Assembly (NCBI GenBank): GCA_028293625.1
Contig: JAQGOL010000030.1
Span: forward strand, 62,001-126,000
Source of the DNA: Chthoniobacteraceae bacterium
GTDB taxonomy: Bacteria; Verrucomicrobiota; Verrucomicrobiia; Chthoniobacterales; Chthoniobacteraceae
DNA length: 64,000 nt
Direction: 5' to 3'
Below, piece by piece: positions 27,769 through 63,688 of the stretch (position 1 is the stretch's first letter; every line of letters starts with the position of its first letter). A program made the translations under genes and the position numbers. The notes under the pieces were generated by a model. The model was not told where the DNA came from and did no database searches. It saw nothing but the letters and a program-made list of their open reading frames with translations.

Positions 27769-27860
27769 GCGGCGTGGGCATTGCGCCTAAAGAATTGTGA
27801 GTGGGCGGATTGTTGAAGGAGAGGACAACGGCGTGGCTGCCGGATCTCCCCTCTTCCCCC

Positions 27861-42752: not shown

Positions 42753-45700
42753 TTACTCCGCGAATAAATGATGCAAGTCTTCGAGGGTGAGGCTCTGGGC
42801 AAACTTCTCCTCGCCCAGCACATCATCCGCCAGCGCACGCTTGCCAGTCTGCAAGGCGCGGATTTTCTCTTCGATACTGTCTTTAATCAGCAACCGGTAG
42901 GCCATGACTTTGTTTACCTGGCCGATCCGATGGGTTCGATCGATTGCCTGGTTTTCCACCGCGGGATTCCACCATGGATCAAATAGAACCACGTAACTTG
43001 CCGCGGTTAGATTCAAACCGAATCCGCCCGCTTTCAACGAGATAAGAAAGACAGCGGCGCCTTCGTGCGCCTGGAACTCGCGCACCAGGTTGCCGCGGTT
43101 TTCGGTCTTGCCTGCGAGGTAATAAAGCGGCCAGTTTCGCTTCTCAATTTCAGCGCGCAGAATGTCGAGCATTTCGACAAACTGGGAGAAGACGAGCACC
43201 TTCTGGCCTTCTTCAATCAGCGGCTCGAGCTGTTCCATGAGCGCATCAAGCTTGGCGCTGGCGGCTTTGGATTCGGGCTTAACCAGGCGCGGATGGCAGC
43301 AGATCTGGCGCAAGCGCATCAGCGAAGTGAGGACATGGAAGCGTTCCTTCGCCAGCTGTTTCTGGGTCGTGACATGCAGAAGCATCTGTTGGGCGCGTTT
43401 AAGCTCCGCGCGGTACAAGGTGCGCTGTTCGCCTTCCAGTTCACAGTAAAGATCTTCCTCCACACGATCAGGCAGATCGGTGGCAACCTGCGCCTTGGTG
43501 CGCCGCAATACAAATGGACGCACCCGCGCAGCCAGACGGCGCCGGGCAAAAGGATCGTCTTTTGAATCGTATAGCTTGGCGAATTGCGCGCGGCTGCCAA
43601 GGGCGCCCGGCATGGCAAACGACATCAGGCTCCACAGGTCAAGGAGCCGGTTTTCGATCGGCGTGCCGCTAAGCACAAGGCGATGGGCCGAACGCAGGGA
43701 GCGTGCAATCTGGGCCGTGGCGGAACTTGGATTCTTAATAAACTGGCCTTCATCGAGGATCACGGAGAGGAAGGCGATGGAGGCGAGCGCTTCGCCCATT
43801 GAACGAAGTTGCGCGTAGTTGATGACGTGCAGATCGGCACTGGCGGTCTGTTTGGCAAGCAATTGAAGATCGCTTCCATGCCAGACGCGGACCCGGGTTC
43901 CGGGCAGGAAACGCTCGGTTTCAACCCGCCAGTTATCGGCAACGCTCTTTGGACAGATCACCAGCGAGGGCAGAGCGGCCTCCGAGCCGGGCCTTCCGCG
44001 CAGCCACGCCAGCCAGGTCAATGTCTGGAGCGTTTTACCCAAGCCCATGTCATCGGCCAGAATACCGCCGAAATTATTGACGCTCAGGTAAGCAAGGAAA
44101 TGGAATCCTTCGATCTGGTAAGGACGCAGATCGGCGCGGATCACAGCGGGCACATCGGGCATGACTCGCGCCTGAAGTTCGGCGGCGCGGCGCTCGATCT
44201 GATCGCATTGTTCAGCCGGCAGGAAACGGCGGGCCGCTTTGTCGGCAAGCTGCAAGGCATGGAGGCGCTGCGGTTCACTGGAAAGATCGCTTGCGCTGAG
44301 TCCAAGCCGGGAGAGCTGTTCGTCGTCCTGCTCGGTCAATTTAAATTCAAGTCGGCGCCATCCCTTGTTGCCAAGGCGCACCCAGCCGCCGCGGGCATCG
44401 AGCAGAAGTTTAAGCTCTTCCTTGCTGAGCTCGGTTTCGGAAACATCGAGCACCACCCGCAGGTCAAACCAGTCAACACCCGCCTCTTCCACATCGAGCC
44501 GGACGGAACCCGCCACGGCTTCTTTTTGAAAGGAAGCGAGTTCGCCGCGTAGTTCGACAGGGATGTTGGAGGGAAGCAGTTTAAGCCAGGCCGAGAAAGT
44601 GTCCGCGAACTTGCGCGTTACCTTAAAATGCCAATGCGAACGATGCTCATCCCATTTGAGAGCGAGCGGTTCGAGCAGGACCGGAAGCGGGGCAAGGGCG
44701 GACCGATCGTAATAAATGTCCGGATCGTTGGAAGGCTCGTCATCGCTGGCACGCCGCCAGCCATCCGGCGTATAGACCATGCGCAATGCGCCATCGTTGG
44801 ATTCGGCGATCGCTTCAAGAATACAGCTCTCCTCTTTGGCGCCAGCCCAGGTCGGCTGCACATCGCAACGGATAAACGGTTTTACCTCAATGGTGCGGAC
44901 TTTTTCGCGGAGACGAGTCGGCAGTTCCACACCAAGCCGGCGCAGGAATCGAACACCATGACCGCTTTCCAGCGCGGGCGCCGGAATGCGTGCCTCGGCG
45001 CCGGGATCGATGGCGCGCGCGTCGACTTCAGGACCGGTCCAGATGGCGTCCCGGGTGAGGTAATAAGTGGGTACCCCTTTGGCTACAAAGAGGAATGGGC
45101 CGGCATGCGAGCCGTCCGGGAGCACCAGGCGCAGCTTGTAATCCTCGCTTTCGTCGTAAACAGGCGAGAGATCCCAGCGCAAAGGCTCCGCGGGATGCGC
45201 CATCGGCATGCCATTCTCGGCAACCAGCCGGCTTGCAAGCCATGGGACACGCAGGATTTCATTCAGGATCCCGCTCGCATCGGCCTCAAAATAACGCAAT
45301 GAGGGCTCCATTCCGAACTCGGCGCGTTCCACAAGGCGCTGGCAAAGAAGCGCCGCCTCCGGTGTGCATTCACTGTCAGGTACATTGGCCAGCGCCTTGA
45401 ACTGCGGCGGCTTCATCGGCGCAAACTCCGGTTCACCCGCCCGCCGAGATTCGATGATCGCCTGGCCTGAAGTGAAGCGAAGCCGCAAATCGAGTTCGCG
45501 CGGCGGAGAGACCGGGACATCGTCATGGAGATGGGAAAGCAATTTTTTCCAGCGCTCCACATCGCGCTCGCGTTTCCATTGTTCGACCCGGTCGCGCACC
45601 GGCCCCGGGTCGCTCACCGGTTCCATGAAAAAGGGAATCCGAACCGAGCGTTCCTCGAGAAAAAGGACGAGGTAAAGCCAGAACTCGCGTTCATTGGCAG

Positions 45701-46259
45701 GCAAAGCGGGCCAGATGGCAACCCGATCCCTCGCAAATCCCGGCACATCGAGATCAAGGGAATCGAGATCTTCGCTTTGAAGCACCCCGTTTTTTTTCAC
45801 CTGGGCAAACGCCTGGCCGATCGCGCCGAGGTATTCGAGTTCGGAAACGCTCAGCTTGCGCTCGTGGGCGGCTTCCAACTCGGCGGTAAACGGGCTTACC
45901 GTCTGCTTTTTGGGAGCAACCGGTGGAACGTCGGGGGTTTCGGAGGCAGCTTCCGCGGCCGGAACAGGGGCCACAAGCAACGATTTCATCAACGCGTACG
46001 TGTGGCGGCATTGGGACCCGGTCGAGCAGCTGCAGGTCTCCACCCATCTATTGCTGCCGGGTTCATACACCACCACGGTGCGGTAAGATCGTGAGCCGGT
46101 GACTTCAGCGCTGAAACTTTCACCACCAGCGTGTTGAGCAATGTCCTGCACAGCGCCCCCGACAAAATAGGCCATCCCCTTCCGGGCTGTCGCAGGCGAA
46201 AATCCGCGCAAAAACTTGTGTGCGGCAGCGCGTGCAGCGGCCGAGATTACGAAAAACAT
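42753..46259 (-). CDS. SNF2-family helicase with SWIM zinc finger
   Basis: A 1,168-residue Swi2/Snf2 DNA translocase. It has an N-terminal SWIM zinc finger (Cys76, Cys78, Cys84, His86 in 'CSCSTGSQCRH'), a long middle region, and the two ATPase lobes from about 700. Motif I is DDMGLGKT (about 735), motif II reads DEGQ instead of DEAH/DEAQ, and the second lobe has 'VLVFSQFVEMLDIL', 'LISLKAGGFGLNL' and 'DRTHRIGQ'. Role: chromatin-like nucleoprotein remodelling or repair, unproven in bacteria. A TTG at 46295 is the farthest start; ATG 46259 is chosen. It lies 112 bp downstream of ftsZ. Confidence 0.87.
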   Translation of the reverse strand: MFFVISAAARAAAHKFLRGFSPATARKGMAYFVGGAVQDIAQHAGGESFSAEVTGSRSYRTVVVYEPGSNRWVETCSCSTGSQCRHTYALMKSLLVAPVPAAEAASETPDVPPVAPKKQTVSPFTAELEAAHERKLSVSELEYLGAIGQAFAQVKKNGVLQSEDLDSLDLDVPGFARDRVAIWPALPANEREFWLYLVLFLEERSVRIPFFMEPVSDPGPVRDRVEQWKRERDVERWKKLLSHLHDDVPVSPPRELDLRLRFTSGQAIIESRRAGEPEFAPMKPPQFKALANVPDSECTPEAALLCQRLVERAEFGMEPSLRYFEADASGILNEILRVPWLASRLVAENGMPMAHPAEPLRWDLSPVYDESEDYKLRLVLPDGSHAGPFLFVAKGVPTYYLTRDAIWTGPEVDARAIDPGAEARIPAPALESGHGVRFLRRLGVELPTRLREKVRTIEVKPFIRCDVQPTWAGAKEESCILEAIAESNDGALRMVYTPDGWRRASDDEPSNDPDIYYDRSALAPLPVLLEPLALKWDEHRSHWHFKVTRKFADTFSAWLKLLPSNIPVELRGELASFQKEAVAGSVRLDVEEAGVDWFDLRVVLDVSETELSKEELKLLLDARGGWVRLGNKGWRRLEFKLTEQDDEQLSRLGLSASDLSSEPQRLHALQLADKAARRFLPAEQCDQIERRAAELQARVMPDVPAVIRADLRPYQIEGFHFLAYLSVNNFGGILADDMGLGKTLQTLTWLAWLRGRPGSEAALPSLVICPKSVADNWRVETERFLPGTRVRVWHGSDLQLLAKQTASADLHVINYAQLRSMGEALASIAFLSVILDEGQFIKNPSSATAQIARSLRSAHRLVLSGTPIENRLLDLWSLMSFAMPGALGSRAQFAKLYDSKDDPFARRRLAARVRPFVLRRTKAQVATDLPDRVEEDLYCELEGEQRTLYRAELKRAQQMLLHVTTQKQLAKERFHVLTSLMRLRQICCHPRLVKPESKAASAKLDALMEQLEPLIEEGQKVLVFSQFVEMLDILRAEIEKRNWPLYYLAGKTENRGNLVREFQAHEGAAVFLISLKAGGFGLNLTAASYVVLFDPWWNPAVENQAIDRTHRIGQVNKVMAYRLLIKDSIEEKIRALQTGKRALADDVLGEEKFAQSLTLEDLHHLFAE

Positions 46260-46371
46260 GGGTTGTGAGTCTAGGGCAGCGAAGCTTTCGGGCAAGCGTC
46301 ACTCTCCAAGAAAATTCTCAGACCGGATTTCCCCCCTTCCGGAGGCTCGCGAAGAGAGACAAATGACGGCT

Positions 46372-47670
46372 TTACCGCCCCTGCCCCGCCTTTGCATTGC
46401 GGCGCAAAAAGGTGGGCACATCGAGATCCTGGCCATCGACGATAGTCGGCTCGCTCTTTTCAAAGCGGCCCCGCGTGGCCGGTTCAAACTGCACCTGCGC
46501 CGGTTCAGGGAGGCGCTGCGGTGGATGGATATCATCGGATTCCTCCGCGGTGCGGGAGACATTGCGCACATTCAGTCCGGTCAAGGGAGCCGTAACAAGC
46601 GGGCTGTAGGCTTCAACCACCACTGGGGGGGCAATTGGCTCGGCTTTTTTGATTTCCAAATGCGCGGGAACCCGCCTTGGCACCGCAACCTCCACCGGGA
46701 TCGGCTCGCCCAAGGCACTTACAATAACAATACTGAGCCGCTCCCCGAGTAGCGGATCGATCGCCGCGCTGAACAGAATCCGAGTCCGTTCGCCGATATG
46801 CCGATTAAACTCCGTCATAAAGAGCTGCACCTCATCAAGGGTGAGGTTCCGGCCGGCCGCGACGTGGATTAGCACATTATGCACATCGGACAATAATCTG
46901 CCCCGATCCATCAGCGGACTTTGAAGCGCTCGCTCAAGGGCCGTCAAAGCGCGATGAGTGCCATCGGCCTCTCCCAACCCAAAGAGGGCACGCGCATTCT
47001 GGGCGCGCAACGCCGCGGCAACCTGGGCAAATCCGGCATGAATGAGGCCGCGCCGCCGCATCAGCGCCGTTATCGAGCGCATTGCCTGGCTTAAGATCAG
47101 GTCCGCCATCGCGAACGCTTCGCGCAACTCCGTGCCGGCGGAAACCGTGGAGGCCATCTTGTCGTTCTCAAAACAAATCACAAGGTCGGCGTAACTTTCA
47201 AGCGTGGCCAGCGTTTCCTCCGCAAGCGCCCGCCGGCGTTCTCCTTCAAAGCTAAACGGCATCGTGGCGAATACGATCACCAACGCCTCCTGCTCCTGGC
47301 CATAAGCAGCCACCAAAGCCGCGGCACCTGATCCGGTCCCACCACCGAGTCCCATGCAGACAAACAACAGATCCGCTCCATCAATGGACGCGCGAATCTC
47401 CTCGGCCGATTCCTCGGCGGCACGATAACCAAGCTCCGGATCGCCTCCCGTGCCAAGTCCCTGGGCAACCCCCGTGCCGAGCAGCACCTTGAGCGCCGCC
47501 TCCGAGGAGTCAAACATTTGGGAATCGGTATCAAGCACAACGAGATCCGTGGCCGGCACTCCATCGCGTTGCAGCCGATTTAAAAGGTGGTTTCCCGCAC
47601 CGCCGAGCCCAATGACCTTGATACGAAGATCCGCCGTGGATGATTGGGCGCTGCCAGGTAATTCGATCAT
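46372..47670 (-). CDS. ftsZ: Cell division protein FtsZ with altered T7 loop
   Basis: A 432-residue tubulin homologue. The GTP-binding half is present: 'IKVIGLGGAGNHLLNRL', tubulin signature GGGTGSG (109-115) and a T6 region reading ENDKM. The C-terminal conserved peptide LDVPTFLRR is also present, after a linker of about 80 residues. The T7 loop, which in other FtsZs reads N-x-D-x-x-D and completes the active site of the neighbouring subunit, reads H-A-G-F-A-Q (211-216), so the Asn and both catalytic Asp residues are gone. The flanking sequence aligns in frame, so this is no frameshift. It is the last dcw gene, 117 bp after ftsA. Confidence 0.9.
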   Translation of the reverse strand: MIELPGSAQSSTADLRIKVIGLGGAGNHLLNRLQRDGVPATDLVVLDTDSQMFDSSEAALKVLLGTGVAQGLGTGGDPELGYRAAEESAEEIRASIDGADLLFVCMGLGGGTGSGAAALVAAYGQEQEALVIVFATMPFSFEGERRRALAEETLATLESYADLVICFENDKMASTVSAGTELREAFAMADLILSQAMRSITALMRRRGLIHAGFAQVAAALRAQNARALFGLGEADGTHRALTALERALQSPLMDRGRLLSDVHNVLIHVAAGRNLTLDEVQLFMTEFNRHIGERTRILFSAAIDPLLGERLSIVIVSALGEPIPVEVAVPRRVPAHLEIKKAEPIAPPVVVEAYSPLVTAPLTGLNVRNVSRTAEESDDIHPPQRLPEPAQVQFEPATRGRFEKSEPTIVDGQDLDVPTFLRRNAKAGQGR

Positions 47671-47787: not shown

Positions 47788-48993
47788 TTAACCAAAAATC
47801 CGCAGTTTGCGACTGAATCGCGAAAACCAGCCGCGCGGTTTTTCCCCCTGCATGGCCTGCGCGTATTTCACCAGGCCGATTGCGGTGGAAAACTGCGGAT
47901 TTTCGAAGGGCGAAGTGATTCCTCCAACGGTGTGGGAATGGCTCAAATGGACAGGCATCCCAAACACTTCTTCAGCAAGTTGATCAATTCCTTTTATCAG
48001 CGAGCAACCTCCCGTTAGTAAAAGACCGGACCCAAGAAAATGCAGGATATTGCCTTTTTCGAAATCGCGCTTAAGCAACTCGAAGATCTCCCGCACCCGG
48101 CAATGGATGATCGTGTTAAGCATTTCGCGATCGAGTTCACGCCCTGAAAACCCGGTTTCATCCTTGAGCACGACCCGGTCGCCGGGCCGCGATTGCCCAA
48201 GCAACACGCTTCCTTCCTCAATCTTAAGACGTTCGGCGCGTGCCATCGGAATCCGCAATCCAAGGGAAATATCGTTGGTGATATGATCGCCTCCGACCGC
48301 CAGGCAACGGCTGTATTTGACCGCGCCGTCGATATAAACGATGTAACCGCTGGTGCCGCCGCCCATATCGATGACGAGGGCGCCGAGGTTTTTTTGATTC
48401 AGATCGAGCATGACCTGGGCGGCGGCCAGCGGAGCGAACACGACGGCTTCGACATTGATATCCAGCTCTTTAACGCAGCGGATACTATTCTTTATCCGTG
48501 TTCCAACCCCGTGAATGATGTGGAAGTCCGCTTCCAGCTTGCGGCCCATCATTCCAATCGGGTTTAGCACACCGTCTTGTCCATCGACGTAATAATGCTG
48601 AAGGACCGAATGCACAAACTGGTTGGCCGGCGGAATGGAGACTTCGCGCGCCGCGGCTTGCACCTCTTCAAAATCTTCTTCGCAGATCTCTTCCCGATCC
48701 TCGGGGATGTCGACCGACCCGCGATTATTGAGGCTTCCAATATGGCTGCCCGTCACCGCAAGCAGAACGCTGCGGATCATCACGTCACTTTTTTCCTCCG
48801 CATCAGCAAGCGCTTCACGCACGCATTTCCCGGCTGTCTCAAAATCGACAATCTCGCCCTTGCGCACGCCGCGCGAGGGCGATTGGCCGACTCCAAGGAT
48901 TTTCACCGAGCCATCCCGGCGCGTTTCCCCGACAACGGCGCATATTTTGGATGTTCCGATTTCGAGCCCAACAACAATGTCTTCACTAGCCAT
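47788..48993 (-). CDS. ftsA: Cell division protein FtsA
   Basis: A 401-residue actin-like membrane tether for FtsZ. The N-terminal 'VGLEIGTSKICAVVGE' and central 'LGALVIDMGGGTSGYIVY' are the ATP-binding phosphate loops, and the SHS2/1C domain follows 'VDFETAGKCVREALADAEEK'. The C-terminus 'RGWFSRFSRKLRIFG' is the amphipathic membrane-targeting helix. Its start overlaps the end of ftsQ by 8 bp. In the usual third phosphate loop the motif reads GGCSLI. A complete FtsA argues that the FtsZ system is in use. Confidence 0.94.
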   Translation of the reverse strand: MASEDIVVGLEIGTSKICAVVGETRRDGSVKILGVGQSPSRGVRKGEIVDFETAGKCVREALADAEEKSDVMIRSVLLAVTGSHIGSLNNRGSVDIPEDREEICEEDFEEVQAAAREVSIPPANQFVHSVLQHYYVDGQDGVLNPIGMMGRKLEADFHIIHGVGTRIKNSIRCVKELDINVEAVVFAPLAAAQVMLDLNQKNLGALVIDMGGGTSGYIVYIDGAVKYSRCLAVGGDHITNDISLGLRIPMARAERLKIEEGSVLLGQSRPGDRVVLKDETGFSGRELDREMLNTIIHCRVREIFELLKRDFEKGNILHFLGSGLLLTGGCSLIKGIDQLAEEVFGMPVHLSHSHTVGGITSPFENPQFSTAIGLVKYAQAMQGEKPRGWFSRFSRKLRIFG

Positions 48994-50095
48994 TGGCGCG
49001 AAATGGTTTCCGGATCGAATCGAGGCTTCTCGGCAAGGGCGCTTCGGATTTGCGCCGCGTCGGGGAAGCGGATTCTTTTTTCACTTTTGGGGCGGGCTCT
49101 TTTTTGGAGGACCCTGATTTACCGGAAGCACTCTTTTGAGCCGACTGTTTGGCGGCCGGCGGTTTGGCTGGCTCGACTTTGGCGGACGGAACCTCTGAGG
49201 CGTCGTCGGATTCGACCACGGGATCCACGAATGTGACAGGCATGTTGCGTTCCACCAAAAGATTCACCGTCTGGATGCCGCGATGGCTTGGCTCGAGATG
49301 ATCAAGAAGGCGGTTAAGCCGTTCAAGTTGAAGATCCACCCGGTCGAGCCCGAATGTGATCTCGGATCGGGTCTGGGAAAGCACTTTCAAACAGTAACCT
49401 TTTGAAATGTCGATCAGCCGGGCCTGGAACCGCGTGCTGTCGGCATTGAGCCGGACGAGTTCAAGCGCAGCTTGCATTTCAAGGCTGTGAACACGCTGCC
49501 CGGCTGCGAGGTTATCCATTTCCACGCCGGTGATCACCGGCATGTGCAAATATTCCGGCAAGACCGTTTTCGAATGCATCACAATGCCGTGGGCATCGAT
49601 AAGAAACGATTTTTCAGAATCGAGCGGGTTGGTTTCGCCTTTGGCGCAGACCCACGCCAGCGGCCGGCGTTCATTGATGGTGACATTCAAACGATTGGGC
49701 AGGACCCGCTGGATTTCCACCCGCTCGGCTTGCGGCAGCCGGATCAGGCCTTCGCGCGCCTTGGCCAGGTCGATTTTGAAGATATTGCTCCCCATCATGA
49801 TTCCGCCCGCGCTGACAATCTGTTCGCGGGTGATGGCGCCATCGGTGGAGATCCGCAGATCGCTGAGAAAATAATCCGGGTTCTCCCAGAGAAATTTTTT
49901 GAGCGCTGTCTTGCCGCCGACATAGGCGCCAATGCCAAGCCCGGCGATGAGCAGGAATTTAAAGCTGAAAGCCAGAATGGTGCGGTTGCGTTGGGAAACC
50001 GCGACGTCGTGACGCACGGTGACCTCAAGCAACTGTTGCTGCTTGCGCTGACGCGTATTCGAGACGCGCCGATTGCGGGCTCGGGTGTTACTCAT
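48986..50095 (-). CDS. ftsQ: Cell division protein FtsQ/DivIB
   Basis: A 369-residue bitopic protein of the divisome that links FtsZ-ring assembly to septal peptidoglycan synthesis. The cytosolic N-terminus is basic (about 1-40), a transmembrane helix spans about 42-64, a POTRA domain follows ('YFLSDLRISTDGAITREQIV') and then the FtsQ beta domain. The C-terminus (about 305-369) is a long Pro/Ala/Lys/Ser-rich tail not found in most FtsQ proteins. ftsQ lies 5 bp after the ddl stop and overlaps ftsA by 8 bp. Confidence 0.9.
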   Translation of the reverse strand: MSNTRARNRRVSNTRQRKQQQLLEVTVRHDVAVSQRNRTILAFSFKFLLIAGLGIGAYVGGKTALKKFLWENPDYFLSDLRISTDGAITREQIVSAGGIMMGSNIFKIDLAKAREGLIRLPQAERVEIQRVLPNRLNVTINERRPLAWVCAKGETNPLDSEKSFLIDAHGIVMHSKTVLPEYLHMPVITGVEMDNLAAGQRVHSLEMQAALELVRLNADSTRFQARLIDISKGYCLKVLSQTRSEITFGLDRVDLQLERLNRLLDHLEPSHRGIQTVNLLVERNMPVTFVDPVVESDDASEVPSAKVEPAKPPAAKQSAQKSASGKSGSSKKEPAPKVKKESASPTRRKSEAPLPRSLDSIRKPFRANG

Positions 50096-50100
50096 GAAGT

Positions 50101-51018
50101 TTAATGGAAGCGGGTAAGAGAAAGTTCAATGATCCGGGCACAGAGCTCCGGATAACCAATGCCATGCGCGGCGGCGGCTTCAGGCAGAAGACTGACCGGT
50201 GTCATGCCGGGGATGGTATTGACCTCAAGCACAAATGGTTCGTCCTGTCCGCTTAAAACGAAGTCGACCCGTGAATAGACTTGCAGATCGAGCGCACGAT
50301 GCGCGGCCAGAGCCAGCTGCTGAACTTTGGCTGTCAATTCCGGACTCAACGCCGCGGGGCAAAAATGGTCAGCCCCCGCCGCGTTTGGATTCAGGAAAGG
50401 ATATTTGTTGGCGAAATTATAAAAATCATCTTTTGCCACAATCTCAATGATCGGGAGCGCGAGATCGCCGACGACACCGACCGTCAGCTCCCGGCCAGGA
50501 ACAAATTTTTCCACGAGCAGTTCATTTCCGTGGGTGCGTGCCTGAACAAGGCTTTTCTCAAGCGACGCCGGTTCTTTCACAATGTAGATCCCAACACTTG
50601 ATCCTTCCTTTGGCGCTTTAATGACAAATGGAAGCGATAATGTTGGTTCGGCTCCGTTACGCAGAATCTCAAATTCCGCTGTCGGTACACCACGTTCAAC
50701 CAATCGTTGTTTGGTGGCAATCTTGTCGATGGCCAGTTCGCTGCCCGCAACGCCTTCCCCGGTATACGGCACATTGCGCGCCTCCAGGATCCGCTGGATC
50801 TGCCCATCCTCGCCGAAAGTGCCGTGGATGACGTTAAAAGCGATTTCGGTTCCGGGCGGAACAATGAAGTCGGGGCCGTCCACGTCGACGCCGGTCACGT
50901 CAGCGCCAAGGCTGCGGAGCGCTTCCATTACGCCTTCCCCGGATTTTAGGGAGACTTTCCGTTCTGAACCAGGGCCGCCTAAAAGAACGGCAATCCGTTT
51001 GTTGCGAAGATCAATCAT
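50101..51018 (-). CDS. ddl: D-alanine--D-alanine ligase
   Basis: A 305-residue ATP-grasp enzyme that makes the D-Ala-D-Ala dipeptide for MurF. Landmarks: 'IAVLLGGPGSERKVSLKSGE', 'PFVIKAPKEGSSVGI' (ATP lid) and 'FVLEVNTIPGMTPVSLLP' (Mg ligands and substrate loop). ATG 51018 gives a standard N-terminus; a TTG at 51036 overlapping the murC-murB stop as TTGA is an alternative. In chlamydiae the ligase is fused to MurC, whereas here it is separate and adjacent. Confidence 0.95.
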   Translation of the reverse strand: MIDLRNKRIAVLLGGPGSERKVSLKSGEGVMEALRSLGADVTGVDVDGPDFIVPPGTEIAFNVIHGTFGEDGQIQRILEARNVPYTGEGVAGSELAIDKIATKQRLVERGVPTAEFEILRNGAEPTLSLPFVIKAPKEGSSVGIYIVKEPASLEKSLVQARTHGNELLVEKFVPGRELTVGVVGDLALPIIEIVAKDDFYNFANKYPFLNPNAAGADHFCPAALSPELTAKVQQLALAAHRALDLQVYSRVDFVLSGQDEPFVLEVNTIPGMTPVSLLPEAAAAHGIGYPELCARIIELSLTRFH

Positions 51019-51032
51019 GTTAAGAGGTCGGT

Positions 51033-53333
51033 TCAATCGTGAAAACTGCCGTCTTCGCCGATGATTTGCACTTCGGTCTCCAGGGTGATGCCGCGTTCTT
51101 CCAATGCCTTCTCCCGGATCCGTGTGATTAACGCAAGCACATCGACCGCGGTCGCTCCGCCGTCGTTGACAATAAAATTGCCGTGCACTTCGGAGACGCG
51201 CGCCTGTCCGATCCGTTCTCCTTTGAGGCCAAGTTCATCGACAAGTTTTCCCGCCGGGATGGTGCCGGGGTTCTTAAAAATACAGCCCGCGCTCGATTCC
51301 CGCGGCTGGCTTGAGCGACGCTTGGATTGGGAGGCATCAAGCAATCGCTCAATCTCCGCTGGAACGCCAGGCTGGCCTTTAAATGTGGCCGAGACCGCAT
51401 ACGCATTTTCCAGGGCGGCAGCATGGCGGTAACGCACCCCCAATTCAGCTGGAGTGCGGGTATGGAATTCGCCGTTCTGATCGACAAAGCGGACGCTGAC
51501 CACGTGGTCAAACGTTTCTCCGCCCATTGCCCCGGCGTTCATCCGCAGGCTGCCGCCGACATTGCCGGGAATGCCCTCCATCCACTCAAATCCACCGAGT
51601 TGGGCGTCCCGGGCCGCATACGCCACTTCTTTTAATCGGACTCCCACACCCGCCATGATCTGGCCTTCCCGGGACTCCAATTTACGAAACTCGCCTTTGG
51701 CCAAATGCACGACCACACCGCGGATCCCGCCGTCGCGAATTAATAAATTCGAGCCCCGCCCGATCACATAAAGCGGAATGCCTCGCTCATGACAAAAACG
51801 GACCAGACGCGCGAACCCCTCTTCGGTTTCCGGCTCAACCCAAAACTGAGCGGGACCGCCAACGCGCATGGTGGTGTGTTTGGCCAGCGGTTCATAAAGT
51901 CTTACCAAGCCGATCCCGATGACCGCCTGGATTTCTTCAAGAACCGCGAGATCCCGGGCGAGCACCTTCGCCGATTCGTGAATATTTCCGGCCCCCAAGC
52001 TGATCACGCAATCGCCGGGCTCGAGCATATGCCCGATTTCAAGGGCGAGTTTTTTGCGATCCGGCTGGTAGATGACGCGTTCATGCCCATCGCGAATGAT
52101 TTCATCAACGATCGTCTGGCCGCTTACGCCAGCGATGGGCGTTTCACTGGCCGCATAAACATCGGTGATCACCACCGCCGAGGCGTCATGGAATGCGCGC
52201 CCGAATTCTTTCTTTAAGGCAAGCGTGCGTGTGTACCGATGTGGTTGAAACATCACCAAGACGCGTTTGCGGCCCGTGTTTTTCGCCGTGGCCAGCGTCG
52301 CGCAAATCTCGCTTGGATGATGCCCGTAATCGTCAACCACCATGAACCGATCGCTGCGATGTTTGATTTCGAAACGCCGCCGCGCGCCGCGGAAACTTTC
52401 AAGGGCTTCCGCGATTTTTTCAAAGGGAACTCCAAGCTCGGTTGCCAGCGCAATGGCGCCGAGCGCATTGCTTACGTTGTGGCGGCCCGGCACATTGAGG
52501 GTCACGGCGCCGAGCACTTCTCCACCGCGCAAGACCCGGAAATGGGATTGGAAATCCTTGGCGTGCACATCGTCAAAACGATAAAAAGCCGAGTGCGATT
52601 CGCCATACGAGATAGCGCCGGGATGCACGGAGCAAATCCGCGTGGCATGAGGGTCATCGGCGCAATAAAAGACGTGGCCCCGGGTCTGGCTTAAGAGCGT
52701 GTTAAAGACCAGCTCGATCGCCGCGAGATCGGCATAGAAATCGAGATGCTCCTCCTCGATGTTTAAAATGATCGCGTGCTCAACGTGATAAAGAGCCAGC
52801 GTGCCATCGCTTTCATCGCCTTCGGCTACAAAATAATCTCCAGCCGGCTCCCAATGCGCGTTCGTGCCGAGGATCGGGATCTCAGCGCCAACATAATGGG
52901 ACGGCTGCACTCCGCCGATTCTAAGGATATGCGCGGCCATCGACGACGTGGTGGTCTTTCCGTGCATGCCAGCCACGACGATCGCCTTTTTGGCACGCAT
53001 CAGGGCGGCAAGCGCTTCCGCACGCCGCAGCAATGTTTTTCCCAGCCTAAGCGCTTCCGCATAATCGGGATGCGCGGCCCGGATGGCGGATGAATAGATG
53101 ACCAGATCGGCACGTTCGACCGCGGCGGGTTGATCAGGTGAGAAGAATTCAAGACCCAGTTTTTTGAGCCGCTCCACCTCTCCGGACCCGACCTTGTCCG
53201 AGCCGCTTACCCGATGACCAAGGGCGATTAGCAAGCCGGCAATGCCGCTCATGCCTGAACCGGCAACGCCGATCAGGTGAATGTTGAGTTTACCGGCGCT
53301 TAAACTCTCGGCAATGGCCTGGCATGATTCCAT
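51033..53333 (-). CDS. murC-murB: MurC-MurB fusion (UDP-MurNAc:L-Ala ligase / UDP-MurNAc dehydrogenase)
   Basis: A 766-residue two-enzyme protein. Residues 1 to about 460 are MurC: 'NIHLIGVAGSGMSGIAGLL', P-loop GMHGKTTTS near 122 and 'FMVVDDYGHHPSEI'. From about 475 it is MurB: 'EPLAKHTTMRVGGPAQFW', 'YVIGRGSNLLIRDGG', 'GSLRMNAGAMGGE' and a C-terminal Glu in TEVQIIGED. The catalytic Ser position of the MurB loop reads AGCIFKNP, a Cys variant known in the family. The order in the chain is the reverse of the pathway, MurB acting before MurC. It lies 43 bp downstream of murG. Confidence 0.95.
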   Translation of the reverse strand: MESCQAIAESLSAGKLNIHLIGVAGSGMSGIAGLLIALGHRVSGSDKVGSGEVERLKKLGLEFFSPDQPAAVERADLVIYSSAIRAAHPDYAEALRLGKTLLRRAEALAALMRAKKAIVVAGMHGKTTTSSMAAHILRIGGVQPSHYVGAEIPILGTNAHWEPAGDYFVAEGDESDGTLALYHVEHAIILNIEEEHLDFYADLAAIELVFNTLLSQTRGHVFYCADDPHATRICSVHPGAISYGESHSAFYRFDDVHAKDFQSHFRVLRGGEVLGAVTLNVPGRHNVSNALGAIALATELGVPFEKIAEALESFRGARRRFEIKHRSDRFMVVDDYGHHPSEICATLATAKNTGRKRVLVMFQPHRYTRTLALKKEFGRAFHDASAVVITDVYAASETPIAGVSGQTIVDEIIRDGHERVIYQPDRKKLALEIGHMLEPGDCVISLGAGNIHESAKVLARDLAVLEEIQAVIGIGLVRLYEPLAKHTTMRVGGPAQFWVEPETEEGFARLVRFCHERGIPLYVIGRGSNLLIRDGGIRGVVVHLAKGEFRKLESREGQIMAGVGVRLKEVAYAARDAQLGGFEWMEGIPGNVGGSLRMNAGAMGGETFDHVVSVRFVDQNGEFHTRTPAELGVRYRHAAALENAYAVSATFKGQPGVPAEIERLLDASQSKRRSSQPRESSAGCIFKNPGTIPAGKLVDELGLKGERIGQARVSEVHGNFIVNDGGATAVDVLALITRIREKALEERGITLETEVQIIGEDGSFHD

Positions 53334-53376: not shown

Positions 53377-54474
53377 TTACGGCCTCTTCGGCTTGCAAAA
53401 GTTCAGGATCGTATCGACCACCCGCTCAGCAGCATCGTGGGGCGCGAGCTTGGCGCTTCGCCGGGACATTTCGGCGAGACGCTCGGGATCCTGCACAAAC
53501 CACAGGAGCGTCTTGGCGAGCGTGCTGCCTGCGATTTCGCTCTCTTTTATTAATGCCGCAGCGCCCGCCGCATCAAAGATTTTCGCGTTTAAAGTTTGGT
53601 GATCCTCGGCCGCAAACGGATAGGGAATCAGCACGCTCGGCAACGCAAAGTGCGAAAGCTCCGTCAGACTCGCCGCTCCCGATCGGGCAATGCAAAAATC
53701 AGCGGCGCTGTAAGCTTCGCCCATGCGATGGGAAAACGCCGCTACAAACGCCGGGATTCGCTCCTTTTCATACGCCTCGCGCACGGCGGCTTCATCCTGC
53801 TTGCCGCTTAGATGGATGACTTGCATCGGCATCTCCTTTAACAATGGCAATGCAGCAATCAGCGCCCGGTTGATCCCCTGGGCGCCCTGACTGCCTCCCA
53901 TTACGAGTAAAGTTTTACGTCCCGGCTCAAGGCCAAAAGCCGCCAGGGCCTCCCGCTTTTCGAGCCGGTTGGCAAGGGAGGCCCTGACCGGGGTGCCTGT
54001 CACAATTGAGCGTCCGCTTGGAAAATGAGCCGCGCATTCTTTAAATCCAAGCAGCACACCCGTCGCCATCCATCCATTCAGCCGATTCGCTTTTCCGGGA
54101 ATCGCGTTGGATTCATGGACAAACGTCGGGATTCCACGGCGGCGTCCGGCCAGAATCGGCGCGGTGGAAGTAAATCCGCCCATGCCAAGCACCGCATCGG
54201 GCTTGAATTCGCTGTAAAGCGCGCGGCACTGATCAAGACCGCTTTTGAAACGGCGGATAAAGCCGAAGATTGCCGGGGAAAAAACCTTTGGCATACCGAT
54301 GCCGGGCAGTTTTTCGAAACGGAATTCACTTCGGCCCTGGGTGGCAAGCGCGTCGATCTCTTTTTCAGAAATCAGGACCATCACTTGGTGACCGCGCGCG
54401 AGCAGAACTTCGCCCACGGCAAGTCCAGGAAAGAGATGGCCGCCAGTACCTCCGGCAGCGATGACAAATTTCAT
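53377..54474 (-). CDS. murG: UDP-GlcNAc:lipid I N-acetylglucosaminyltransferase
   Basis: A 365-residue GT28 enzyme on the inner face of the membrane that makes lipid II. The N-terminal glycine loop 'FVIAAGGTGGHLFPGLAVGE', the lipid-binding 'ESNAIPGKANRL', the second G loop 'LLVMGGSQGAQGINRAL' and the C-terminal 'SGAASLTELSHFALPSVLIP' with 'AAEDHQTLNA' are all family hallmarks. It lies between ftsW and murC-murB in the usual dcw position; the gap to ftsW is 82 bp. Confidence 0.96.
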   Translation of the reverse strand: MKFVIAAGGTGGHLFPGLAVGEVLLARGHQVMVLISEKEIDALATQGRSEFRFEKLPGIGMPKVFSPAIFGFIRRFKSGLDQCRALYSEFKPDAVLGMGGFTSTAPILAGRRRGIPTFVHESNAIPGKANRLNGWMATGVLLGFKECAAHFPSGRSIVTGTPVRASLANRLEKREALAAFGLEPGRKTLLVMGGSQGAQGINRALIAALPLLKEMPMQVIHLSGKQDEAAVREAYEKERIPAFVAAFSHRMGEAYSAADFCIARSGAASLTELSHFALPSVLIPYPFAAEDHQTLNAKIFDAAGAAALIKESEIAGSTLAKTLLWFVQDPERLAEMSRRSAKLAPHDAAERVVDTILNFCKPKRP

Positions 54475-54556: not shown

Positions 54557-55714
54557 TTAGATACGGAATGGGCGGCGGTACGGCCGGGTGCGGGCGCTAA
54601 AACGGACGGTGGTGGTGTCTGCTTTTTCACTGACGCCCTGACGGTAAATATTGATCAGCACTCCAAGGCAAAGCAGGCAAAAGGCGAGGTTGGAACCGCC
54701 ATAACTGATGAACGGCAGCGGCAGACCTTTATTGGGAAGCAACGAAGTGGTAACCCCGATGTTCAGCGCGGCTTGCAAAGCAACAATAACAACCAGACCA
54801 AACCCAAGGAGCATTCCAAACCGGTCCCGCGCATGGACGGAGATGATCGTTCCACAAAGGACGACAACCACGTAGCAGAAAACGACAAGCAGCGTGCAAC
54901 GAAGCCCGAGTTCCTCGCCGATCATCGGGAAAATAAAATCGGTGTGGGCAAACGGGAGATACGCCATTTTCATGCGTCCGTTACCCAGCCCGAGTCCTTC
55001 CACTCCGCCTGAACCAAACGCAAGTTGTGCCATCCATTGCTGCAGTCCGGCGCCATCCTTGTATCGTTCAAGGTCCAGGAACGCCATTAAACGGCCGTGC
55101 CGTTCACCGATATGCGTGGCGATATAGAGCATTGCCCCAATGCCACCGACAAAAATCGGGATGATATAGCGAAGCCCGGTTCCGGCCACAAACATCATGG
55201 TAAACATCGTGGCGCCAATCAGCGCGGTGCTGCCCATATCGACTTCCGGCGCGATGAGCCCCATCAAAATTCCGGTGCCGGCAATCGGATAAATAAAGCC
55301 TTTTAGAAAACTTTTAGCATCGGTTTCTTCCCGTGAAAACCACCACGCCAGCGCCGCCACGGCTGCGAACTTCGCCATTTCGGAAGGCTGACACTGCAAC
55401 GGACCGATTTTAAGCCAACGCGCCGAGCCGTTGATGCGGTAACCGATCGGCGGAACAAAACAGAGGAGCAACAGGACGATTGAAAGCCCGAACCAGATTG
55501 CCCAGGTTCTTTGCCAAAAATGATAGTCAATGTTGGCGGCAATCACGCAGGCGAGTCCGCCGATCAGGAGCCATTCAAACTGGCGCACGATAATCGAGTT
55601 AGGGTGCCCGGCATTGCCTTTGGCAAACGCGCTCGTACTAAAAAGCATCACGCAGCCGAGAACGATCAGCACCATAACCGATATCACCATGAAATAAACG
55701 CTTTTACGGTGCAT
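54557..55714 (-). CDS. ftsW: Septal peptidoglycan polymerase FtsW
   Basis: A 385-residue SEDS-family membrane protein with about ten helices that polymerises lipid II with its partner PBP FtsI. Landmarks: 'LCFVPPIGYRINGSARWLKI', 'QPSEMAKFAAVAALAWWFS', 'APEVDMGSTALIG' (catalytic Asp region) and 'LLPNKGLPLPFISYGGSNLA'. The first possible start is a TTG at 55717; ATG 55714 is chosen. It sits between the LysM-protein gene and murG. Confidence 0.95.
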   Translation of the reverse strand: MHRKSVYFMVISVMVLIVLGCVMLFSTSAFAKGNAGHPNSIIVRQFEWLLIGGLACVIAANIDYHFWQRTWAIWFGLSIVLLLLCFVPPIGYRINGSARWLKIGPLQCQPSEMAKFAAVAALAWWFSREETDAKSFLKGFIYPIAGTGILMGLIAPEVDMGSTALIGATMFTMMFVAGTGLRYIIPIFVGGIGAMLYIATHIGERHGRLMAFLDLERYKDGAGLQQWMAQLAFGSGGVEGLGLGNGRMKMAYLPFAHTDFIFPMIGEELGLRCTLLVVFCYVVVVLCGTIISVHARDRFGMLLGFGLVVIVALQAALNIGVTTSLLPNKGLPLPFISYGGSNLAFCLLCLGVLINIYRQGVSEKADTTTVRFSARTRPYRRPFRI

Positions 55715-55796
55715 CAATCAGCAAGGGAACGCCCTTCCTCCATCCATTTCGTTCAGGCTAAGCTGCGTTAAAAGGGCGCTTTTCATCAATAAGCGC

Positions 55797-56573
55797 TCAG
55801 TTTTTCTTCTGAGGCACTTTAAGGGTGCGTCCCACCTGCAGCTTGGTTGGGTCCTCGATATTATTGAGCTTAAGCAGTTCCTGATAATTAACCCCGAGTT
55901 TCCGGGCAATGATTTCGGGAATATCGCCCTTGGCCACGACGTAGGTTTTGGGCAGCGGTTTTGCAGCCGCTTTCGGCGTTGTCTCGGTTTTCTTAACAGC
56001 GGCCGCCGCGGGCTTCGACTTGGGCAGGTTGAGCACCTGGCCGGCACGCAAGGTTGCCACCGATTTTGCGCCGCCGTTGACTTCTTCAAGCTCTCCCACG
56101 CTGACGTTATACATCGCCGCGATGCGGGTGAGATTTTCACCCGATTTAACATGATGAACTCGCACGCCTGTAATCGGTGAAATGGCGGCGGCAGGCGCAA
56201 CGGGAGCCCGTTCGACCACTTCCGGCTTCGTGTTCGGCGGCGGCTTGGAAACGGGAGACTTGGAGACGGGCGGTGTCTCAACCTGCTGAACAACGGATGC
56301 GGCAGGCTTTGCGGCGGCCGGTTCGACCGCCACCGCGGCGACTTCCTGGGTTTTGCGATGCGCTTTGATCCCTTGGAAAGCGTAGATACCGCCCACCGCC
56401 ACCAGATGCAGAATCAACACGACAATAATCGCACTCGAAAAATTCGTCTGCGGTTCATCGTACGATTCCTCGACGGGTTGAGCTGTGCGGCGCGAAGCGG
56501 CTGCCACGTGCAATTTCTTGCGCCCTTTGGGCGGAAAAAGTTTCGGGAACTTTGGAAGCTTCGGGAGCATCAT
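55797..56573 (-). CDS. Membrane-anchored double-LysM protein in the dcw cluster
   Basis: A 258-residue protein: basic Pro/Lys-rich cytosolic N-terminus, one transmembrane helix (about 45-69), a long Pro/Ala/Val linker, then two LysM domains (about 138-184, 'HHVKSGENLTRIAAMYNVSV'; about 211-255, 'TYVVAKGDIPEIIARKLGVN'). LysM domains bind GlcNAc-containing glycans, so the protein should reach from the inner membrane to peptidoglycan. No catalytic domain is present. Its ATG overlaps the murD stop as ATGA, which argues for a role in cell-wall synthesis or division. It is not a standard dcw member. Confidence 0.88.
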   Translation of the reverse strand: MMLPKLPKFPKLFPPKGRKKLHVAAASRRTAQPVEESYDEPQTNFSSAIIVVLILHLVAVGGIYAFQGIKAHRKTQEVAAVAVEPAAAKPAASVVQQVETPPVSKSPVSKPPPNTKPEVVERAPVAPAAAISPITGVRVHHVKSGENLTRIAAMYNVSVGELEEVNGGAKSVATLRAGQVLNLPKSKPAAAAVKKTETTPKAAAKPLPKTYVVAKGDIPEIIARKLGVNYQELLKLNNIEDPTKLQVGRTLKVPQKKN

Positions 56574-61894: not shown

Positions 61895-63688
61895 CTAATC
61901 GCGAAAAACTTGGGTGATCATTTCCGACGTTGCCTGCTCTTCAACGGTCGGCGTGAGGTTGAGGTAACGCGCGGCTTTTTCTCCAATACGCGAAAAAACA
62001 GGGGCCGCGATCATTCCGCCGTAGTTCTGCTCCGGTTTGGTTTGGGGCTCATCGAGCATGACGAGGGCGACAAATTCGGGCGCTTCAGCGGGCATGAATC
62101 CAACAAAAGAGACGACATGTTTGCCGCGCTCATAGCCGCCTTCCGGGCTCGCTTTTTGCGCGGTGCCGGTCTTGCCGGCGACATTGTAACCAACCACATG
62201 CGCGAGCGGGGCAGTCCCCTTTTTGCTCACGACCTGGACCAGCGCGTCGCGCACGATGGCAATGGCTTCCGGGGTCGCCACGCGTCGCACCTCCGTTTTT
62301 TGCATGCTCTGGACGACATTCCCGTCTTCATCGGTGATGGAGTGGACAATCTGCGGCATCATGAGGCTGCCACCGTTGGCGATGGCACCCATTGCGGTGA
62401 CCACCTGAAGGGGCGTTGCCGCGACTTCCTGGCCCATTGGCACATGGGTAATGGAGACCTGGCTCCAAACGTTGACCGGATGCACGATACCGGAAATTTC
62501 ACCCGGAAGATTCACTCCGGTGCGTTCGCCAAAACCAAACTTGCGAACCGCATCGTAAAGCCGCTGGGGCCCAAGCTGGATGCCGAGTTTGGCCACGCCG
62601 ATGTTGCTGGAATGCACCAGGAGTTCCTCCACGGAAAGATCTCCATAGGCGCGATGATCATGGAGTGTTTTGCCACCCCAAAGAAACGCGCCGTTTTCAC
62701 AAAAAATGTAGCTGTTGCGGTTGACCAGGTTCTGGCTCAGTGCCGCGGCCGTCGTCACGATTTTGAAGGTCGACCCGGGCTCAACCATATCGGTGATGGC
62801 ACGGTTACGACGCGCCGCTTCCGGACTATCCTCGATCACGTTCGGGTCAAAGTTCGGACGATTGGCAAGTGCAAGGATTTCGCCCGTCTGTGGACGCATC
62901 AGGATGACGCAGGCCATTTTCGGCCGGAATTGTTTGCAGGCGGCATCAAGCTCGGCTTCCACGATTTGCTGGAGGCCCATATCGATGGTCAGGCGCACGG
63001 TGAACCCATTGCGGGGCGCTCTTTCCTGGCCGCGGAAAGCCACCAATTCCTTGCCGGTCCGGTCCCGTTCCACTGAACGGAATCCCGCATGCCCACGCAG
63101 GTAGGCATCGAGATTGCGCTCAATTCCTTCGACCCCGGTATTGTAGTTGTTTACGTAACCCACCACATGACAGAGCATCTCGCCATTGGGATAGCGACGC
63201 TCCGAATCGGGCTCAAAATGGATCCCGCGCAGTTTATTTTCGGACAGCGCCAGCGTGATCTCACTGGCAACACTCTCGGGAACTTTCTTTTTTAATACAA
63301 TGTAACGTGACGGCGCCGTCTTTTTCTCGGCGCCATCTTTGACTTCACGCTCGGTGGAAAGTTTCTCGAGAAGAAGAGCCTCGCTCAGGCCAAGCGGCTT
63401 GGCGAGAAGCGCTGCCATCCCGGCCCGATCGGCCACGTCGATGAGCGACCCATCGGCAATGACCGTCCGGATCGGTTCATTCTGAGCCAGGGGCTCGCCG
63501 TGGACATCCTCGATGACGCCGCGCCGCGCGCTGATCGCTTCCTTATTGGTATGTTTTTCAGCGGCTTTCGCCGTGTATTCGTCGCGTTTGGTGACCTGCA
63601 AATGCACCAGCCGCGCTGAAAAGAGCGTAAAGCAAAAAACAAATCCGCAGCAGGCCACCAGCGCCCGCGTTTTGGCGGGGTCTCTCAC
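61895..63688 (-). CDS. ftsI: Division-specific penicillin-binding protein FtsI
   Basis: A 597-residue class B PBP with one N-terminal transmembrane helix. It has a pedestal domain (about 50-230) and a transpeptidase domain with the three active-site motifs: S-x-x-K in PGSTFKIVT (Ser near 305), S-x-N in HSSNIGVAK and K-T-G in AGKTGTAQK. It crosslinks septal peptidoglycan with FtsW. The GTG start overlaps the ftsL stop as GTGA. No PASTA domains are present. Confidence 0.95.
   Translation of the reverse strand: MRDPAKTRALVACCGFVFCFTLFSARLVHLQVTKRDEYTAKAAEKHTNKEAISARRGVIEDVHGEPLAQNEPIRTVIADGSLIDVADRAGMAALLAKPLGLSEALLLEKLSTEREVKDGAEKKTAPSRYIVLKKKVPESVASEITLALSENKLRGIHFEPDSERRYPNGEMLCHVVGYVNNYNTGVEGIERNLDAYLRGHAGFRSVERDRTGKELVAFRGQERAPRNGFTVRLTIDMGLQQIVEAELDAACKQFRPKMACVILMRPQTGEILALANRPNFDPNVIEDSPEAARRNRAITDMVEPGSTFKIVTTAAALSQNLVNRNSYIFCENGAFLWGGKTLHDHRAYGDLSVEELLVHSSNIGVAKLGIQLGPQRLYDAVRKFGFGERTGVNLPGEISGIVHPVNVWSQVSITHVPMGQEVAATPLQVVTAMGAIANGGSLMMPQIVHSITDEDGNVVQSMQKTEVRRVATPEAIAIVRDALVQVVSKKGTAPLAHVVGYNVAGKTGTAQKASPEGGYERGKHVVSFVGFMPAEAPEFVALVMLDEPQTKPEQNYGGMIAAPVFSRIGEKAARYLNLTPTVEEQATSEMITQVFRD

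Follow-up and report, generated by a model that had tools for sequence, protein, structure and literature searches.

A verrucomicrobial FtsZ that has lost the catalytic residues of its T7 loop, and the varied T7 loops of its relatives

The GTPase of FtsZ typically works at about 1–10 per min, and the need for this hydrolysis and the resulting treadmilling in cell division has mostly been probed in model bacteria that carry damaged alleles. The ftsZ gene found in a 64,000-nucleotide stretch of a Chthoniobacteraceae genome (contig JAQGOL010000030.1; this stretch is hereafter called the window) carries HAGFAQ at the T7 loop, where the solved FtsZs aligned with it have NLDFAD. It thus raises the question of whether such a protein is still used in division and, if so, what has become of its catalysis.

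The codons concerned, cat gcc gga ttt gcc cag (47040–47023, minus strand), encode H211, A212, G213, F214, A215 and Q216, and phmmer aligns the T7 region without gaps to solved FtsZs (RRRGLIHAGFAQV in the window protein against AVPSLINLDFADI and ATPGLINLDFADV). Window residue numbers exceed those of Staphylococcus aureus FtsZ (SaFtsZ) by three, such that H211, G213 and Q216 correspond to SaFtsZ N208, D210 and D213 (E. coli N207, D209 and D212); positions are given below in SaFtsZ numbering unless stated otherwise. The canonical N-x-D-x-x-D is therefore replaced by H-x-G-x-x-Q. Misalignment of the T7 loop was ruled out by a MAFFT realignment, which agreed on all three residues in 236 of 237 genomes and differed only at locus L268, not in the window genome.

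In other respects the protein is recognisably an FtsZ. Both the Tubulin/FtsZ GTPase domain (PF00091, 136 bits) and the FtsZ_C domain (PF12327, 55.8 bits) score above the Pfam cut-offs. Its score against the NCBIfam ftsZ equivalog TIGR00065 (248.5 bits) falls below the curated cut-off of 295.2. This cut-off is exceeded by only 54 of the 286 genomes of the class (232 lack a match above it) versus all 61 of a control phylum (that of a Bacteroidia MAG), and we therefore do not take it as excluding verrucomicrobial FtsZs. The protein is not a bacterial tubulin of the BtubA/B type: its best solved relative is an FtsZ (E 3.9e-58), and the sole tubulin among the solved matches listed is a beta chain (E 9.5e-4). 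AlphaFold2, run with a 67-row alignment, predicts a structure with a mean pLDDT of 84.4, with core blocks mostly above 90 and the block 211–220 that holds the T7 loop at 94 (window numbering). All 50 PDB matches listed for this predicted fold are FtsZ entries (best E 3.4e-38), with TMt mostly above 0.8 and a few at 0.5–0.77, in keeping with an FtsZ fold. The equivalents of R143, D46 and Q48 are retained. Thus, the window protein shares with the canonical FtsZs of S. aureus, E. coli and B. subtilis the fold, the GTP signature, these three residues, the C-terminal peptide and the dcw position, but differs from them in having H for N208, G for D210, Q for D213 and D for N44.

The gene lies beside ftsA and ftsQ in a dcw cluster with the order ftsZ, ftsA, ftsQ, ddl, murC-murB fusion, murG, ftsW, a LysM-domain protein gene, mur genes with mraY, and ftsI (Table 1). 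The protein carries a conserved C-terminal peptide that, judging by its position, we take to be the FtsA-binding peptide, and short C-terminal pieces of it are 66–81% identical to five relatives. A murC-murB fusion is likewise reported for V. spinosum in the available text of PMC12283558. Several other genes of the window deserve mention in their own right. The LysM-domain protein gene separates ftsW from a mur ligase gene within the cluster, and ftsZ is followed directly, in the same orientation, by a 1180-aa ORF for a SNF2-type helicase. Elsewhere, one ORF combines G8 and CEMIP beta-helix domains, which are familiar from animal hyaluronan-related proteins, and another ORF of 617 aa, a putative gene, has no Pfam matches.

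Table 1. Features of the window discussed in the text (coordinates in window positions)
Feature	Coordinates	Strand	Remarks
ORF with G8 and CEMIP beta-helix domains	27801..30305		
Putative gene, 617 aa	33483..35336		
SNF2-type helicase ORF	42753..46295	(-)	
ftsZ, intact, 432 aa	46372..47670	(-)	ORF open along full reading frame
Conserved C-terminal peptide DLDVPTFLRR	46399..46428	(-)	
T7 loop, residues 211-216, HAGFAQ	47023..47040	(-)	SaFtsZ N208-x-D210-F-A-D213
GTP-binding T4 signature GGGTGSG	47326..47346	(-)	conserved; agrees with GGGTG(S/T)G
D47, loop T2 (SaFtsZ N44)	47530..47532	(-)	N in 31/32 other family members with residue there
ftsA	47788..48993	(-)	Pfam FtsA, SHS2_FTSA
ftsQ	48986..50095	(-)	POTRA_1
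ddl	50101..51036	(-)	
murC-murB fusion	51033..53333	(-)	
murG	53377..54474	(-)	Pfam Glyco_transf_28, Glyco_tran_28_C; name inferred by position
ftsW	54557..55717	(-)	
LysM-domain protein gene	55797..56573		
ftsI (PBP transpeptidase)	61895..63688	(-)	

Could the motif be an artefact, either a sequencing or assembly error or a sign that a canonical FtsZ resides in an unassembled part of the genome? The genome is 96.4% complete in 43 contigs (6.83 Mb), which leaves some room for a missing copy. However, a PF00091 search of the whole 6.83-Mb genome found no second FtsZ or tubulin, the window ftsZ at its expected dcw place being the single match. The codon pair GCC-CAG (A215-Q216, window numbering) differs by at least two bases from that of each of the five relatives compared, and the contig is 977 kb long, which makes an artefact unlikely; a frameshift or single-base error as the cause of HAGFAQ is ruled out by these base changes and the open frame. 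The loss of N208 and D210 is, moreover, shared by all 67 genomes of the order that were read. We accordingly regard an error or missing copy as very improbable. An origin from a phage was considered and rejected, as 23 phage records match but none reaches 80% query coverage. The five phage matches listed (MT839183.1, MT835561.1, MT835570.1, MT835696.1 and MT837026.1) encode FtsZ-like proteins 31–34% identical to the window protein; they are "Bacteriophage sp." entries from human faeces that lack annotation, and their FtsZ-like genes may truly belong to phages or be bacterial DNA that was misassigned. The earlier note on this locus had described a substitution of N-x-D-F-A-D rather than a frameshift, in a protein probably in use, with GTP-binding motifs, C-terminal peptide, ftsA, ftsQ, ftsW and ftsI present, and had proposed a genome-wide search for a second copy. 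The codons, the ungapped phmmer alignment and the MAFFT realignment all bear out the substitution, and the intact ORF, motifs, peptide and dcw neighbours agree with a protein that is used.

Our initial expectation that NxDFAD would be conserved in the order of the window genome was ruled out, as N208 or an acid at 210 is kept in none of the 67 genomes read. An acid at 213 is kept in 63 of these, and four have neither acid. Within the family, G210 is universal (35/35), and D or E occupies 213 in 34 of 35 genomes, the window genome alone having Q; this Q213, together with A212 and D44, is private to it in the family. Most relatives show an x-x-G-hydrophobic-D-D/E pattern at T7, and an acid at 212 is present in 64 of the 73 genomes with G at 210 versus 5 of the 107 with D or E there. 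As the acid at 212 goes with G210, the relatives have an alternative acidic pair, both members of which the window protein lacks (A215 and Q216 in its own numbering). Compensation of G210 by D212 was nonetheless rejected, given that the strong raw association is not significant in pair tests (median p 1). Loci titled Prosthecobacter debontii (T7 loop KLGLDD), Akkermansia sp. and Chthoniobacter sp. have G210 like the window protein: the four named loci read K-G-D (L044), N-G-E (L048) and H-G-E (L032, L033) at 208-210-213, and all four keep D212 and D/E213, unlike the window protein, which has neither. Across the aligned domain, some family sequences do not differ at all from MAG loci that bear the titles Chthoniobacter sp. 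and Spartobacteria bacterium. The motif change is thus not mainly a novelty of the window species, and only its final step, the loss of the acid at 213, is private in the family. The branch thus exchanged NxDFAD for xxG-hydrophobic-D-D/E long ago, and the window protein went on to lose both remaining acids.

We then surveyed the Verrucomicrobiota using one FtsZ locus per genome. The searches touched 391 genomes, six of which gave no FtsZ match; the T7 loop was read in 237, leaving out the fragment L030, and was alignable in 229, with seven of the remaining eight belonging to family code f20. Since the sampling was non-random, being enriched for relatives, best scorers and deliberately weak scorers, the following counts are not phylum frequencies: the full triad of N208 with acids at 210 and 213 is found in 26 of the 229 (including G128, with E at 210), the acid at 213 alone in 98, N208 and the acid at 210 without that at 213 in 41, the acid at 210 alone in 30, N208 with the acid at 213 in 17, both acids without N208 in 10, and neither acid in 7 (among them L173, which reads P-P-N and whose T2 region is misaligned). 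At least one full-triad member occurs in 16 of 79 family codes, and the losses differ in kind, with some families keeping D/E213 alone and others N208-D210 without D213. The earlier note had centred on the loss in this one protein and suggested alignment with other Verrucomicrobiota; that alignment upholds the loss of the motif here but assigns the N208 and D210 losses to the whole order, in a phylum sample where the full triad is itself infrequent.

In the control, a single phylum from which 50 of 61 genomes were read (30 best and 20 lowest-scoring, the second copies listed in G437 and G453 not among them), all 50 FtsZs have N-D-D together with N44, D46 and Q48. The looseness in Verrucomicrobiota is therefore not a product of the method, and HAGFAQ is not a chance reading. 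D213 is also lost outside the phylum, as two outgroup loci titled Staskawiczbacteria (L045 and L051) read N-I-D-F-A-S, with S at 213. On an FtsZ tree of 224 rows and 8 outgroup rows, built without the T7 test columns and leaving out 8 rows that could not be aligned and 5 that were partial or misaligned (L066, L272, L173, L245 and L250), the loss of both acids (6 of 224 rows) requires at least four changes, a count that is approximate because this was a rapidly built tree in which long branches meet.

The survey also turned up several divergent groups. All 24 genomes read of family code f23 (e.g., L073, L083 and L085), which may be the Opitutaceae, though this is a guess, keep N208 and D210 and have T, S, A or G at 213; f21, f44 and f46 similarly keep N208 and D210 and have lost D213, which is opposite to what the window's order has lost. 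Family code f12 (among L175–L187) has a very divergent FtsZ whose T7 loop is basic (VKITRAD, VRINRSH), whose position 48 is acidic and in which G72 is a gap; both acids are lost in three of nine genomes. The matches in family code f20 (L188, L189 and L264–L269) are weak, with T7 unalignable in seven of the eight genomes read, and the FtsZ search of G129 of this family, a 99% complete genome, gave no match. In other classes of the phylum (f63–f86), D44 is common, D210 is often kept and 213 is highly variable (A/S/G/R/H/T). Two published V. spinosum ftsZ primers had no match among 325 loci.

The window FtsZ is also unusually diverged. In the 30 of 35 family genomes whose loci hold enough of ftsA for comparison, the window genome shows the largest gap between the two proteins, its mean identity to the 29 relatives being 50.6% for FtsZ versus 65.4% for FtsA. 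The end branch of its FtsZ is 0.4, against a median of 0.16. Of the 84 columns that reach 90% conservation or more in the family, 13 are changed, the joint highest of the 32 (of 35) family genomes included, together with two that keep E213. Such divergence would be expected of a gene on its way to loss, with relaxed selection behind the T7 changes and division having become FtsZ-independent, as it has in Planctomycetota and Chlamydiota. However, 71 of the 84 conserved columns are kept, the ORF, GTP motifs and C-terminal peptide are intact in a dcw neighbourhood that is present, and the core blocks of the AlphaFold2 model are mostly above a pLDDT of 90. Moreover, ftsZ is reported to be essential in V. 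spinosum (PMC12283558, in the part available). We therefore consider incipient gene loss improbable, and functional decay the less likely reading, though the accelerated divergence in itself fits decay as well.

What the altered residues do is known from canonical FtsZs. According to the available text of PMC8936486 on SaFtsZ filament structures, K+ in the T7 loop is coordinated by the side chain of N208, and a swing of D210 brings the catalytic water into place. D213 helps to hold this water and is also linked to R143 in the lower subunit, whose N44, D46 and Q48 complete the catalytic site, with N44 holding waters of the Mg2+ sphere. The same text calls the T7 catalytic residues conserved across species and reports that N208L, D210N and D213N suppress assembly in solution and that E. 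coli FtsZ altered at these positions is inactive when tested for complementation. In E. coli, FtsZ-D212G is described as having a GTPase almost tenfold down in the authors' fusion construct, is cited as having less than 1% of the wild-type GTPase, and forms rings that are static (PMC7320174, in part); it does not complement a null without a suppressor mutation, though suppressor strains arise (PMC5405962, in part).

These roles bring up the possibility that catalysis has moved rather than weakened, in which case hydrolysis would be near normal; the candidate is D47 (SaFtsZ 44), a loop T2 residue of the lower subunit adjacent to the Mg2+ shell. The window protein has D44, whereas N is found in 31 of the 32 other family genomes that have a residue at this position, and D44 occurs in none of the 26 full-triad genomes versus 63 of the 203 others (two of which have no residue there). 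The changes at the most conserved columns, which include N44D, L50F, A121G, Q146L, D212A and V308I, tend to cluster near the active site: four of six changes at columns conserved at 95% in the family lie within three residues of a listed active-site residue (p 0.017), as do four of five order-wide (p 0.014), though this distance was picked after looking at the data and looser thresholds give p 0.05–0.12. Against this, D44 is frequent among generally divergent FtsZs, and tree-aware pairs are not significant (median p 0.5 for D44 with the acid at 213 and 0.25 with N208). Further, the residue at position 44 is part of the lower subunit and, in the available text of PMC8936486, holds Mg2+ waters rather than the catalytic water. 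An acidic swap from T7 to position 44 thus has suggestive counts but non-significant tree tests, and was kept only as a rival explanation that we rate as rather unlikely, even if another residue may have taken over catalysis.

The best-supported reading is that of an FtsZ that still functions although its catalytic site is much weakened: most likely, the window protein can bind GTP and form polymers, while its GTP hydrolysis is very slow. Taking together the sequence, its conservation pattern, the single copy, the predicted fold and the FtsZ-specific acceleration, we lean towards seeing it as the working FtsZ of a Chthoniobacter-like verrucomicrobium whose lineage tolerates slow turnover. The protein would be expressed, and its intact nucleotide pocket would bind GTP, which would drive head-to-tail assembly. 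The T7 loop of the incoming subunit would then offer no carboxylate that could keep the attacking water in place and oriented, and the Asn that holds the potassium ion would be missing as well. With hydrolysis very slow, filaments would turn over mostly via subunit loss, nucleotide exchange or partner proteins, and the lineage could tolerate this if its divisome had no need for fast GTP-driven treadmilling. As to such partners, a search of the window genome for the ZapA family, a possible filament partner, gave no match. The earlier note had suggested filaments that are slow or stable, or that need a partner to trigger hydrolysis; the roles of the SaFtsZ residues and E. coli D212G, as far as described in the texts cited above, agree with its direction and predict very slow hydrolysis, in filaments that may be slow, stable, poorly assembling or triggered by a partner. 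E. coli FtsZ2 (D212G) resembles the window protein in being non-acidic at the D212 position, but is a laboratory mutant, whereas the window protein is a natural sequence in which the D209 and N207 positions are lost too. The T7 loop of beta-tubulin also has no catalytic acid, and filaments are still made; however, beta-tubulin acts as a heterodimer with a catalytic alpha-tubulin, whereas the window genome has a single FtsZ. The failure of SaFtsZ and E. coli T7 mutants to assemble or complement, as given in PMC8936486 and PMC5405962, means that a dead T7 loop may signify no function rather than slow function. The stronger proposal, that a natural and essentially GTPase-dead FtsZ still drives division without hydrolysis-driven treadmilling, as the end point of a repeated phylum-wide dismantling of the catalytic site in which either acid can be lost first, we put forward tentatively and with some doubt.

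The fast evolution of ftsZ in Verrucomicrobia is already known. Based on the available parts of the sources, the V. spinosum FtsZ has been described as divergent (PMC1845146), V. spinosum divides by binary fission with an essential ftsZ (PMC12283558), and ftsZ evolution is accelerated in Methylacidiphilum infernorum and Prosthecobacter (PMC2474590), the last also containing a reviewer's remark that calls the Lentisphaera ftsZ homolog non-functional. A fast ftsZ without a fast FtsA is common to the window genome and these M. infernorum and Prosthecobacter cases, for which the part of PMC2474590 at hand gives "data not shown" and no residue-level account. The open-access text searched held no report of a phylum-wide T7 loss, though Pilhofer 2007/2008 may hold a residue-level account. 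The phylum-wide T7 pattern is the more interesting part of the finding, with the window protein as its extreme case.

The T7 loop is incomplete in most of the phylum genomes read, and evolution seems to have run the experiment on the need for hydrolysis several times, through at least two complementary modes of T7 loss and in a few lineages without both acids. The window FtsZ could hence be used to ask whether division requires fast GTP consumption by FtsZ, and a graded natural set (N-D-D, N-D-T, x-G-D and H-G-Q) could reveal the level of GTPase that a working Z-ring needs. Finally, the phylum is related to lineages that have discarded FtsZ, and we speculate that division relying less on GTP turnover could mark a stage on the way to dividing without FtsZ.
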